This document shows positions 3,972-6,528 of a stretch of DNA of 64,000 bases, piece by piece. Within the stretch, counting starts at the first letter, position 1; each line of letters opens with the position of its first letter. The position numbers and the translations under genes were made by a program. Source of the DNA: Saccharopolyspora sp. SCSIO 74807 (GTDB lineage Bacteria > Actinomycetota > Actinomycetes > Mycobacteriales > Pseudonocardiaceae); the NCBI RefSeq assembly GCF_037023755.1, contig NZ_CP146100.1, positions 4,867,501 to 4,931,500 of the forward strand, read 5' to 3'. A model generated the notes under the pieces. That model was not told where the DNA came from. It made no database searches and saw nothing but the letters and a program-made list of their open reading frames with translations.

Positions 3972-4327
3972 ATGTACCTGGAAAACCTGGTCACCGACGC
4001 CGTCGATCCGCAGCGGCTCGGCCGGTTCTGGGAGGCGGTGATCGGCGGTCAGCGGCTCACCGACGAGCCCGACTGCTTCGAAACCCAGCTCGCCGTCGAG
4101 GACGGGCCGGTGCTCGACCTGTGCTTCCAGCGCGTCCCCGAACCGCCATGCAGCCGCCCCGGCTGCACATCGACATCCGACTCGAAACCGCAGACGACCC
4201 CGACGAACTCGCGGCAGAAATCGCCGAACGCGGCGGCCGCGAATTCCGCCCCGCTCGGGGAGAACTACCGTGGCGCATCCACACCGACCCGTCTGGCAAC
4301 GAGTTCTGCTTGCTACCGGCCCGGTAA
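3972..4327 (+). pseudogene. VOC/glyoxalase-like protein, frameshifted
   Basis: The N-terminal half (M-Y-L-E-N-L-V-T-D-A-V-D-P to DLCFQRVPEP) reads in one frame. The C-terminal half (PRLHIDIRLETADDP to DPSGNEFCLLPAR, stop at 4327) reads in another. Together they give one VOC (glyoxalase/bleomycin-resistance fold) protein of about 118 residues, joined near 4140-4150 by a single-base deletion. VOC proteins bind a metal and small molecules; this copy is probably inactive unless the shift is a sequencing error. An in-frame GTG lies two codons upstream at 3966. Confidence 0.7.
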
Positions 4328-4466
4328 CAAGCAGAAGCTGCTGATCACCGAGCTCGCCCGCACTGCTCGGCCGAATCGCACCAGCCCGCGCACGCCATGC
4401 TCTGGACCGGATCACCGTGACCACAACCGGCACCTGGATATCTTCGCCACCGAAGCTGATACTGGC
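4324..4466 (+). repeat. Degenerate copy of the thrS 5' region
   Basis: 4324-4405 matches 5026-5110 with many substitutions (shared blocks such as CTGATCACCGA and CACCAGCCCGCGCAC). It then continues directly into a copy of the first codons of the synthetase gene: 4406-4466 encodes PDHRDHNRHLDIF, against PDHRDLNRHLDIF at 5281. The leader peptide, terminator and start codon present in the intact copy are missing. It is probably a decayed tandem duplicate. Confidence 0.7.
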
Positions 4467-4499: not shown

Positions 4500-5009
4500 G
4501 TGACCAGCGACAACCGCATCGGGCCGCCCAAGACAGGCAGTGAACGCGACACGCTGCGGGCGTTCCTCGACTACCACCGTGCCACCCTCGGGATGAAGTG
4601 CGACGGGCTCACCGATGAGGAACTGCGGCAGCAGTCGATGCCACCATCGACGCTTTCGCTGCTCAGCTTGGTGCGCCACATGGCGGAGGTCGAGCGCGCG
4701 TGGTTCCGCCGAGTGTTCGACGACAACAACGCGCCGATGGTTTGGAGCACCGAGATCGACTTCCAGGCGGCCTACGACGCCAGTGAGTCGACCAGGCACG
4801 AGGCGTTCTCGGCCTGGGAAGCCGAGGTCGAGAACTCACGCCGCATCGAGCGCGAGGCGGCGTCCCTGGACGATGCCGGATATCAGCCGAGATGGGGCGA
4901 GAACGTCTCGCTGCGGATGGTGCTGGTGCACGTGCTCCTGGAGTACGGCCGCCACAACGGCCACGCGGATCTTCTGCGCGAGGGCGTGGACGGGCGCGTG
5001 GGCGCCTGA
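4500..5009 (+). CDS. DinB-like protein (DUF664 family)
   Basis: 169 residues from a GTG with GAGGAG 9 bases upstream. The pattern of helices and His residues fits DUF664/DinB four-helix metalloproteins: LRAFLDYHRATLGMKCDGLTDEELRQ, then SLLSLVRHMAEVERAWFRR, and late LVHVLLEYGRHNGHADLLRE. The three His that usually bind a metal (in VRHMAEVE, and in LLEYGRHNGHAD) are present. These proteins are thought to act as thiol-linked (mycothiol or bacillithiol) transferases, or are uncharacterised. The gene lies between the degenerate and the intact thrS leader copies. Confidence 0.85.
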   Translation: MTSDNRIGPPKTGSERDTLRAFLDYHRATLGMKCDGLTDEELRQQSMPPSTLSLLSLVRHMAEVERAWFRRVFDDNNAPMVWSTEIDFQAAYDASESTRHEAFSAWEAEVENSRRIEREAASLDDAGYQPRWGENVSLRMVLVHVLLEYGRHNGHADLLREGVDGRVGA

Positions 5010-5103
5010 GCAAGAACGGCCCTTGGCCGGTAACAGGCCGAAACCACTGATCACCGACCCTCCACGCACTGCCGAGCGCCACCAGCCCGCGCACAACATG
5101 CTC

Positions 5104-5109
5104 TACACT
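5104..5109 (+). promoter_or_regulatory. Putative -10 element for the thrS leader transcript
   Basis: TACACT matches the actinobacterial TANNNT -10 pattern. It lies exactly 6 bases before the leader ATG at 5116, the geometry of a leaderless transcript. No convincing -35 is seen. The degenerate upstream copy has lost this hexamer. Confidence 0.5.
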
Positions 5110-5115
5110 GCCCAC

Positions 5116-5163
5116 ATGCGACTTGCCCAGCACACGACCACGCCGGATCCACTCCGGCGCTGA
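5116..5163 (+). CDS. Threonine-rich leader peptide of a thrS attenuator
   Basis: A 15-residue ORF, MRLAQHTTTPDPLRR, with three consecutive Thr codons (ACG ACC ACG, 5134-5142). It ends 99 bases before the start of a threonyl-tRNA synthetase gene. An alternative in-frame ATG at 5098 would add MLYTAH. ATGCGACTTG (5116-5125) can pair with CGAGTCGCAT (5164-5173). CTCCGG (5152-5157), inside the last codons, can pair with CCGGAG (5192-5197), which is half of the terminator stem. A ribosome stalled on the Thr codons leaves 5152-5157 free to form the antiterminator; a ribosome reaching the stop covers it. No Shine-Dalgarno is visible, consistent with a leaderless start. Confidence 0.7.
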   Translation: MRLAQHTTTPDPLRR

Positions 5164-5186
5164 CGAGTCGCATCGACAACGACAAC

Positions 5187-5213
5187 GAGCCCCGGAGCTG
5201 TGCTCCGGGGCTC
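5187..5213 (+). terminator. Attenuator terminator before thrS
   Basis: Perfect 11-bp stem GAGCCCCGGAG / CTCCGGGGCTC with a 5-base CTGTG loop. There is no U tract, which is common in high-GC genomes. Its left arm overlaps the predicted antiterminator partner at 5192-5197. Confidence 0.75.
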
Positions 5214-5262
5214 CGTCATATCCCGGTTCACGACTCCGGGTACTCCGAACCAGGAGACCTCC

Positions 5263-6528
5263 GTGAACCAGCAAGACGCCGCACCGGATCACCGCGACCT
5301 CAACCGGCACCTGGACATCTTCACCACCGACCCGGAAATCGGCGCCGGACTCCCGTTGTGGCTTCCCAACGGCTCGGCCATCCGGGACGAACTCGAACGC
5401 CTCGCCCGCGACATCGCACAAGCGGACGGATGCCAAGGCGTCCACTCACCGGTCCTGGCCAAACGCTCCTTGTTCGAGAGGTCCGGACACTGGGGAAAGT
5501 TCGCCGACGACATGTTCCCGCCGATGCGCGTCGGCGGCGACGAACTCGTGCTGCGACCGGCGAACTGCCCCCACCACGCGCTCATCTACGCCGCCTCCCG
5601 GCACTCCTACCGGCAGCTACCGATCCGGTACAACGAACTCGCCCCGATGTTCCGCGCCGAACGAACCGGCGTGCTGTCCGGACTCGGCCGGGTGCGCCAG
5701 ATCAACCTCGACGACACCCACGTCTTCTGCCGCCCCGACCAAGTCGCGGCCGAAGCAGCCCGCGCGCTGCGATCCGCGCTGCGCGCCCAAGAAATCATGG
5801 GACTGCGAGTCGACTACGTGCGCCTGTCCCGGCGAGACGCCACCCCGGCGTTCCTCGGCGAAACCGAGCAATGGCAGCACGCCGAGCAATCGCTGCGCGA
5901 AGCCGCCCACGCGGTCGACCTCCCCAGCCACGGCCTCGACCTGATCGAGGTCGAAGGCGAAGCGGCCTTCTACGGCCCGAAACTCGACCTGCAAGTCCGC
6001 AACGGACACGGACACGACGACACCATCGCCACCGTGCAGCTCGACTTCAACCAGCCCGGCCGCTTCGACCTCACCTACGACGCCGCAGACGGATCGCGAC
6101 AACCAGTCCTGATGATCCACCGCGGCACCGTCGGCTCCATGGAACGCGTGGTCGCCGCACTGCTGGAACGCCACCAGGGCCGGCTGCCGCTGTGGCTGGC
6201 TCCGGTGCAGGCATGCGTCATGCCGGTAGGACCCGCCCAGGACAGCGCCGCCCGAGAACTGGTCGACGCCCTCACCGCGGCCGGACTCCGCCCCCGCCTG
6301 GAACCCGAAGGATCACTAGGAGCGCGCATCCGCGCCAGCAGGCAACGCCGCGACAGCGTCATGGCCGTGCTCGGCGCGACCGAAGCCGACCGCCACCAGG
6401 TCCAGGTCACCGACATCCGCTCCGGCTTCGACGGACCGGTCAGCCGGGACCGGTTCGTCGAAGCGCTCCGAAGCAGCCACCGCGACCGCACCCCGATCGT
6501 GAACTGGCCGCGACCGCAGGCTTCGTAA
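5263..6528 (+). CDS. thrS: Threonyl-tRNA synthetase, short form lacking TGS and editing domains
   Basis: 421 residues from a GTG with AGGAG 6 bases upstream. Housekeeping ThrRS is about 640-690 residues; here the TGS (N1) and editing (N2) domains are absent and the protein begins at the class II catalytic core. Motif 2 region (PMFRAERTGVLSGLGRVRQ) is near residues 128-146 and motif 3 (PVLMIHRGTVGSMERV) near 281-296. The three zinc ligands that select threonine in ThrRS are present: Cys102 (PANCPHH), His153 (DDTHVF) and His286 (MIHRG). An anticodon-binding domain follows from about 310. It should charge tRNA-Thr without proofreading Ser-tRNA. It is probably a conditional or resistance paralogue controlled by the upstream attenuator; the housekeeping gene is not in this window. 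Confidence 0.9.
   Translation: MNQQDAAPDHRDLNRHLDIFTTDPEIGAGLPLWLPNGSAIRDELERLARDIAQADGCQGVHSPVLAKRSLFERSGHWGKFADDMFPPMRVGGDELVLRPANCPHHALIYAASRHSYRQLPIRYNELAPMFRAERTGVLSGLGRVRQINLDDTHVFCRPDQVAAEAARALRSALRAQEIMGLRVDYVRLSRRDATPAFLGETEQWQHAEQSLREAAHAVDLPSHGLDLIEVEGEAAFYGPKLDLQVRNGHGHDDTIATVQLDFNQPGRFDLTYDAADGSRQPVLMIHRGTVGSMERVVAALLERHQGRLPLWLAPVQACVMPVGPAQDSAARELVDALTAAGLRPRLEPEGSLGARIRASRQRRDSVMAVLGATEADRHQVQVTDIRSGFDGPVSRDRFVEALRSSHRDRTPIVNWPRPQAS

Follow-up and report, generated by a model that had tools for sequence, protein, structure and literature searches.

A threonine-codon leader before auxiliary threonyl-tRNA synthetase genes of actinobacteria, probably a ribosome-mediated attenuator

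How is a second gene for threonyl-tRNA synthetase (ThrRS) controlled when the same genome already has a full-length copy? This question is raised by a stretch of 64,000 nucleotides (nt) from Saccharopolyspora sp. SCSIO 74807 (contig NZ_CP146100.1, forward strand, positions 4,867,501 to 4,931,500), which is referred to as the window in what follows. Here, the gene thrS2 is preceded by thrL, a short leader open reading frame (ORF) with three consecutive Thr codons, and by several possible RNA pairings (Table 1). An original prediction, made from the letters of the window, had taken this arrangement for a Thr-codon attenuator on a ThrRS gene. The type of control is supported by the analysis described here, although termination would have to take place at a hairpin with a poor U-tract in the window. 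In effect, the element is very probably a ribosome-mediated attenuator that senses how far threonine tRNA is charged and governs a backup ThrRS.

The genome consists of one contig of 6.69 Mb, and its housekeeping ThrRS is encoded at 3.68 Mb. This enzyme is 39% identical to the product of thrS2 and additionally has a tRNA_SAD domain, while the thrS2 product is devoid of the editing-linked part and is made up, according to Pfam, of a class II core and an anticodon-binding domain. By its domain content, thrS2 is an auxiliary ThrRS gene beside a full-length housekeeping one. Thus, the expectation that the gene next to the leader is thrS was right about the enzyme, but the housekeeping thrS lies elsewhere. 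A housekeeping ThrRS was found in all 30 of the carrier genomes examined. Loss of the zinc ligands from the auxiliary enzymes was considered and rejected, as Cys, His, and His occupy the three positions in 112 of 112 sequences.

Occurrence of the leader before auxiliary thrS genes

Relatives of the auxiliary ThrRS are present in 56 of 297 genomes of the family at an E value of 1e-100 and in 62 of 394 genomes of the class at 1e-85, with the genome of the window included in both counts. Four of 117 loci were removed, namely L008, from the same species, L145 and L146, at contig ends, and L158, which reads as a housekeeping-type gene, and 113 remained; the alignment has 112 rows because the leader of L098 exceeds the length rule. 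Loci L037-L040 were looked at outside these counts, and 31 loci of Acinetobacter and relatives (L041-L071, 34-35% identical) were left out. Positions 5001-5300 of the window share 99% DNA identity with Saccharopolyspora sp. HNM0986, which belongs to the same species.

The run of Thr codons, whose conservation in orthologous loci had been set beforehand as a refuting test, is kept ahead of 111 of the 113 auxiliary thrS genes. A leader ORF with at least three Thr codons in a row lies within 300 nt in 109 of them; in L108 and L128 it is farther upstream owing to an N-terminal extension of the synthetase, and L028 and L093 have Val-Thr-Thr instead. By comparison, three Thr codons in a row were found ahead of none of 30 housekeeping thrS genes and two ahead of 3 of the 30 (orientation by tblastn), and a comparable ORF with three Thr codons arose in 55 of 5650 dinucleotide-shuffled upstream regions. 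The extension in L108 and L128, located between the leader and the catalytic core, is of low complexity and repetitive.

A second feature of these leaders is a TANNNT box situated 6 nt (25 leaders) or 7 nt (87) upstream of the leader start, and thus present in 112 of 112. Because the choice of the leader start had partly used this box, the same rule was also applied to shuffled sequences, where it was satisfied in 28 of 5600. As had been predicted from the single -10 motif of the window, the position of the box points to the leader start, and transcription probably begins at the leader AUG, which would make thrL leaderless. In Streptomyces lividans TK24, RNA-seq places a leaderless thrL before thrS (SLIV_19410) (PMC8079986). 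The peptide of that leader, MKRVRPFLETTPGFVPAR, resembles the relatives described here in its Thr-Thr-Pro and VPAR pattern, while the leader in the window differs in having three Thr residues and a PDPLRR tail. The window element belongs to this already published thrL kind, and in the portion of the published account that deals with thrL, neither an antiterminator or protector pairing nor a comparison of thrL across genomes appears (PMC8079986).

A model of the leader found one strong match in its own genome, with the next at an E value of 0.008. Under stricter filters, the same model matched 10 of 396 genomes of the phylum at 1e-5, with auxiliary thrS following in 9 of them but not in the other, L205. 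Auxiliary thrS genes with this leader are found in several families of actinobacteria and, judging from these searches, thrL-type leaders seem widespread in related bacteria.

Since the controlled gene encodes a synthetase, as with the T-boxes of Firmicutes, a tRNA-binding leader of that type may also come to mind. Yet it is a translated ORF with a Thr run that is conserved here instead of a T-box, and in the window no Rfam family reaches its gathering score, with the four sub-threshold matches at the locus belonging to unrelated families. A T-box is therefore an explanation to which we give almost no credence.

Pairings and the proposed action of the ribosome

The leader ORF with its ACG ACC ACG run and the 10-base-pair (bp) stem between the leader start and the region after the stop codon, here called the protector stem, are present in the window as predicted. 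The perfect hairpin expected before thrS2 is also there, but its stem has 12 bp rather than 11. The segment 5116-5230 has a fold z-score of -6.47, and none of 200 shuffled sequences was equally stable. In its minimum-energy fold, hairpin 1:2, which the original prediction had not named, spans 5142-5147/5153-5158.

Conservation of the alternative pairings, likewise called for by the prediction, was assessed on the 112 aligned leaders. The hairpin is paired in 91.6% of cells and covaries, with 69 cells showing changes on both sides compared with 17.4 in shuffles; apart from a slide by +1, slid versions of it have at most 18. For the protector stem, in which leader codons 2-4 face the final codons and the stop, 90.6% of cells are paired, while slid versions reach at most 45.5%, and two-sided cells number 9 against 1.4 in shuffles. 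For instance, in L025 and L073, which belong to one genus, an Arg-to-His codon change on the start side is matched by an Arg-to-Cys codon change on the end side, restoring the stem, although L080 has a start-side change without such a match. Pairs equivalent to hairpin 1:2 are kept in 97.7% of cells, and those of the antiterminator in 95.7%.

It is in distant lineages that the antiterminator finds its support, because both of its strands have been rewritten there. The CTCCGG/CCGGAG pairing is found in three Saccharopolyspora-type leaders and in the distant L202, whereas it reads GTCCCGG/CCGGGAC in L203 and GATCCGG/CCGGGTC in L204. Taking the best helix, with no chance level computed, at least 5 bp are available in 114 of 116 leaders; the exceptions are L156, with 4 bp, and L011, where the hairpin was misplaced by the script. 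The leader of L203, at about 1500-1560, is that of a distant actinobacterium and has four Thr codons (MQHLRALTTTTGAVPEV).

The distances within the leader are also conserved. The first Thr codon lies 21 nt from the CCGG of the antiterminator strand in 102 of 112 leaders and 30 nt from the stop in 100 of them, while the spacing from start to Thr codons varies from 18 nt (89 of 112) to 45 nt. What a ribosome at each of these places would do was modeled by folding the transcript, cut before the 3′ arm of the hairpin, with bases blocked to about 13 nt past the first base of the A-site codon, a footprint that is an assumption. In the window, the probability of the antiterminator is 0.0 in the free RNA; 0.997, 0.996, and 0.66 with the ribosome on the first, second, and third Thr codon; 0.001 when it has moved one codon farther; and 0 at the stop codon, where a ribosome had been predicted to hide this pairing. 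Over the 112 leaders, the mean is 0.07 free, 0.85 with the ribosome stalled at the first Thr codon, and 0.00 at the stop, and the probability exceeds 0.5 in 3, 98, and 0 leaders, respectively. The columns used in this set miss the Saccharopolyspora-type antiterminator, so that L005, L009, and L010 score 0 in it and the window was folded separately. In these models, antiterminator and hairpin exclude each other, and the position of the ribosome would decide between them.

The attenuator would then work as follows. Transcription would begin at the leader AUG, where a ribosome would load. With ample Thr-tRNA, this ribosome would reach the stop codon and cover 5152-5157, the 5187-5213 hairpin would form, and no thrS2 would be made. 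In the absence of a ribosome, 5152-5157 would be masked by the protector stem together with hairpin 1:2, and the 5187-5213 hairpin would form too. Only a ribosome waiting on Thr codons 7-9 would leave 5152-5157 free to pair with 5192-5197; this would break the 5′ arm of the hairpin and let RNA polymerase proceed into thrS2, whose induction would in this way follow from stalling.

Perhaps the simplest objection is that a chance ORF lies ahead of an ordinary terminator, as stable folds do arise in short GC-rich regions. However, the conservation of the leader, the position of the -10 box, the fixed distances, and the covariation of the hairpin all oppose chance, which we regard as a negligible possibility.

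Another explanation would place the sensor in the leader peptide itself, as an arrest peptide whose Thr-Pro and conserved tail act in the ribosome. A tail like TTTPExVPAR is indeed common to most of the 112 leaders. By contrast, the nucleotides of this tail build hairpin 1:2, the protector stem, and the antiterminator; L119 and L131 are frame-shifted after Thr-Pro and lose the tail peptide but keep the RNA pairings, which suggests that what is conserved in the VPAR tail is the RNA and not the peptide. In addition, the PDPLRR tail of the window is unlike the VPAR type, and the tails of Saccharopolyspora-type leaders and of L202-L204 differ while their pairings are comparable. An arrest peptide is therefore very improbable.

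Table 1. Elements of the thrL-thrS2 region, in coordinates of the window
Element	Position	Strand	Basis
-10-like hexamer TACACT, six bases before the leader ATG; predicted start at the ATG (leaderless)	5104..5109	+	Sequence
Leader ORF thrL, 15 codons, MRLAQHTTTPDPLRR	5116..5163	+	ATG 5116, TGA 5161-5163
Regulatory Thr codons (7-9), ACG ACC ACG	5134..5142	+	Sequence; third codon ACG in 112/112 leaders
Protector stem, 5′ half ATGCGACTTG, pairs with 5164-5173 (10 bp, one G-U)	5116..5125	+	Sequence, fold
Protector stem, 3′ half CGAGTCGCAT	5164..5173	+	Sequence, fold
Hairpin 1:2, 5′ half, pairs with 5153-5159; masks most of CTCCGG	5141..5147	+	Sequence, fold
Hairpin 1:2, 3′ half	5153..5159	+	Sequence, fold
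Antiterminator strand CTCCGG, partner 5192-5197	5152..5157	+	Sequence, ribosome-blocked folds
CCGGAG within the hairpin 5′ arm, antiterminator partner	5192..5197	+	Sequence, ribosome-blocked folds
Terminator-like hairpin GAGCCCCGGAGC-TGT-GCTCCGGGGCTC, 12 perfect bp, loop TGT	5187..5213	+	Sequence, fold, covariation
CTCCGGG, complement of CCCGGAG 5191-5197	5234..5240	+	Sequence
Shine-Dalgarno AGGAG of thrS2	5252..5256	+	Sequence
thrS2, auxiliary ThrRS, 421 amino acids, class II core and anticodon-binding domains	5263..6528	+	GTG start; Pfam

Termination or translation as the output

Several observations weigh against an attenuator that works by these pairings and by termination. Shuffle significance is overstated throughout, because the sequences are related. 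A version of the hairpin slid by +1 still shows 50 two-sided cells, with 70.6% of its cells paired. For the protector stem the evidence is mixed, because its covariation score (255 of 500) and pair types (373 of 500) equal those of shuffles and because a +2 slide has 17 two-sided cells compared with 9 for the stem, although only 45.5% of its cells are paired. No compensating change was seen for hairpin 1:2 in the 112-leader alignment, and its conservation therefore says little. The antiterminator varies too little to be supported by the alignment, where it has a single two-sided cell and 171 of 500 shuffles do at least as well. With the 3′ arm made, moreover, equilibrium favors the hairpin whichever of the three ribosome states is taken (means of 0.89-0.91, with the antiterminator at 0.00), so that control must be kinetic. 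Simple scans of 4950-5400 found neither a U-run terminator on the plus strand nor a sigma-70 consensus promoter; the sequence directly 3′ of the 5187-5213 hairpin, CGTCATATCC, is not U-rich, and the hairpin has a better U-tail on the minus strand. Among 110 leaders (two of the 112 are missing), the tails are moderately T-rich (0.37 vs 0.15), and at least 5 T occur in the 10 nt after the hairpin in 33. In S. lividans, thrL likewise has one hairpin followed by thrS, and its authors saw no U-run and called termination not clear (PMC8079986). That the hairpin ends transcription is thus stated here as what it would do in the proposed attenuator.

The lack of a U-run in the S. lividans leader is also consistent with the same sensor having another output, where the leader ribosome would control thrS2 translation through the ribosome-binding region, either instead of termination or besides it. 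In most leaders, the tip of the hairpin, GGCGAGTG, is complementary to CACTCGCC, located just before the ribosome-binding site (RBS), and 91.2% of cells in the alignment are paired. This tip-to-RBS helix has 54 two-sided cells compared with 16.4 in shuffles, while slid versions are 25-62% paired and have 3-20 such cells. All four loop pairs can form in 72 of 112 leaders and at least three in 103, as GAGT/ACTC, GGGT/ACCC, and GAGC/GCTC, with AGGT/ACCT, GGTT/AACC, and GAAC/GTTC seen singly. When one leader per genus is taken (35, the first listed), 113 of 140 loop pairs form compared with 100.4 in permutations (p 1e-4). Because the tip covaries with an element beyond the hairpin, a role in the read-through RNA is suggested. 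The downstream strand can, alternatively, pair with the Shine-Dalgarno region (86.5% paired, 15 two-sided cells vs 6.2 in shuffles).

Nevertheless, in nested folds, which leave out pseudoknots, Shine-Dalgarno accessibility is the same in the antiterminator and hairpin states: of 109 leaders (three of the 112 are missing), it is more open by over 0.2 in only 3 (Wilcoxon p 0.51). The +1 and +2 slides of the Shine-Dalgarno pairing, at 40% and 27% paired, have 21 and 18 two-sided cells, more than the 15 of the pairing itself. Finally, the tip helix has 0 of 4 loop pairs in three Saccharopolyspora-type leaders, that of the window included, although the CTCCGGG that follows the hairpin there might be the counterpart of the helix that other lineages have. 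A second switch, acting on translation, is kept here as a rival only, because folding does not support it and the Shine-Dalgarno pairing fails its slid controls on one measure; control of translation as the output appears unlikely, though not implausible.

Threonine codons, stress and known systems

The Thr codons of the leaders contrast with those of the genes that they precede. ACG accounts for 312 of the 334 leader Thr codons but for 10 of 838 in the 112 auxiliary thrS coding regions (50 of which end early at the edge of the fetched stretch), and 104 of these regions lack it altogether. All 14 Thr codons of thrS2 in the window are ACC, and the genes of L197, L202, L203, and L204 have 1, 1, 1, and 0 ACG among 13, 13, 8, and 14. 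By contrast, ACG makes up 237 of 898 Thr codons in housekeeping thrS, where all 30 genes have some, 36% in 122 mechanically called ORFs upstream of auxiliary loci, and 32% in 37 other ORFs of the window, although it is also missing from 2 of the 34 ORFs of the window that have 10 or more Thr codons. A general avoidance of G-ending codons was ruled out, as CCG, GCG, and TCG reach 60, 42, and 41% in auxiliary and 68, 43, and 42% in housekeeping thrS. Thr codons as a whole are also scarce, with a share of 1.9% in auxiliary thrS, 4.5% in housekeeping thrS, and 6.3% in the upstream ORFs. In the leaders, the second Thr codon is ACG in 108 of 112 and is not obviously fixed by hairpin 1:2, which additionally constrains the third. 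The genome has 51 tRNA matches; 44 of these could be typed, including one tRNA-Thr each with GGU, CGU, and UGU; the 7 untyped matches measure 81-92 nt, a length of the Leu or Ser type.

It is possible, although the idea is advanced with more doubt than confidence, that thrL and thrS2 form a starvation-proofed circuit in which the leader listens to ACG through tRNA-Thr CGU/UGU, the gene has been purged of ACG and is poor in Thr, and, in most lineages examined, the tip-to-RBS helix adds a translational switch. If this were true, thrS2 could be translated while the threonine alarm is on. It is just as possible that the CGU tRNA is a poor substrate of the auxiliary enzyme.

In S. coelicolor, thrS2, which presumably belongs to the same auxiliary family, is listed as activated by WblC (PMC7157823). 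Of the 112 leaders, 30 have a GAAAWY motif, similar to WblC/WhiB7 boxes, within 60 nt of the -10 box; 27 placements fall at -34 to -32, adjoining an A/T peak, and 3 at -22, whereas no such box lies within 60 nt of the thrL -10 in the window. As for inhibitors, Leu489, in the inhibitor pocket, and Gly463 (E. coli numbering) have been called strictly conserved in ThrRS proteins; G463S confers obafluorin resistance and L489M does not (PMC11252418). In the auxiliary enzymes, the position of Leu489 is Gln in 109 of 112, and Gly463 is kept in all 112. Judged by these residues, the auxiliary ThrRS may be an inhibitor-tolerant backup.

Upstream of a mycothiol-S-transferase/DinB-type gene, at 4321-4453 of the window, part of the thrS2 promoter region is found again in decayed form (75% to 5027-5104), with the start of thrS repeated beside it (92% to 5283-5330). 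The copy in sp. HNM0986 (L037, about 2045-2166) retains the hairpin and the thrS start. The 4321-4453 copy is probably the relic of a tandem duplication.

The novelty once claimed for a Thr-codon attenuator on a ThrRS gene is weaker than stated, as candidate attenuators of Streptomyces trpS and leuS (PMC1262725) and S. lividans thrL (PMC8079986) are in print. In the trpS and leuS candidates, too, a synthetase gene follows a classical leader with its antiterminator and terminator; for threonine operons, the available part of that survey reports no conserved structure (PMC1262725). Going by its title, trpRS1 of S. coelicolor is an auxiliary synthetase gene under ribosome-mediated attenuation (Vecchione and Sello 2010, cited in PMC4787780), but it concerns Trp rather than Thr, and antibiotic resistance figures in the title. 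In Rhodobacterales, uORFC-8-2 before cysS likewise combines conserved cognate codons in an upstream ORF with a terminator stem, although for cysteine and in alphaproteobacteria (PMC8632094). The leader of the E. coli thr operon also places Thr codons before attenuated genes, but the operon is biosynthetic and the leader has eight ACC codons, whereas thrL uses mostly ACG (PMC1183508). Searches of an open-access library, which lacks most subscription papers, showed no report of how widely thrL is distributed, of its competing pairings, of the helix from hairpin tip to RBS, or of the contrast in codons.

What had been one leader from one Streptomyces transcriptome is thus extended to a control element before auxiliary thrS in several actinobacterial families. 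The element may connect a backup synthetase with the charging state of tRNA and, for S. coelicolor, also with the antibiotic-stress regulon of WblC. Should the tip-to-RBS helix prove functional, a classical attenuator would gain an output at the level of translation. The contrast between ACG-rich leaders and ACG-poor genes lets the selective-charging theory of how leader codons are chosen be tested in nature, in a lineage whose leader codon is not that of the E. coli thr leader.

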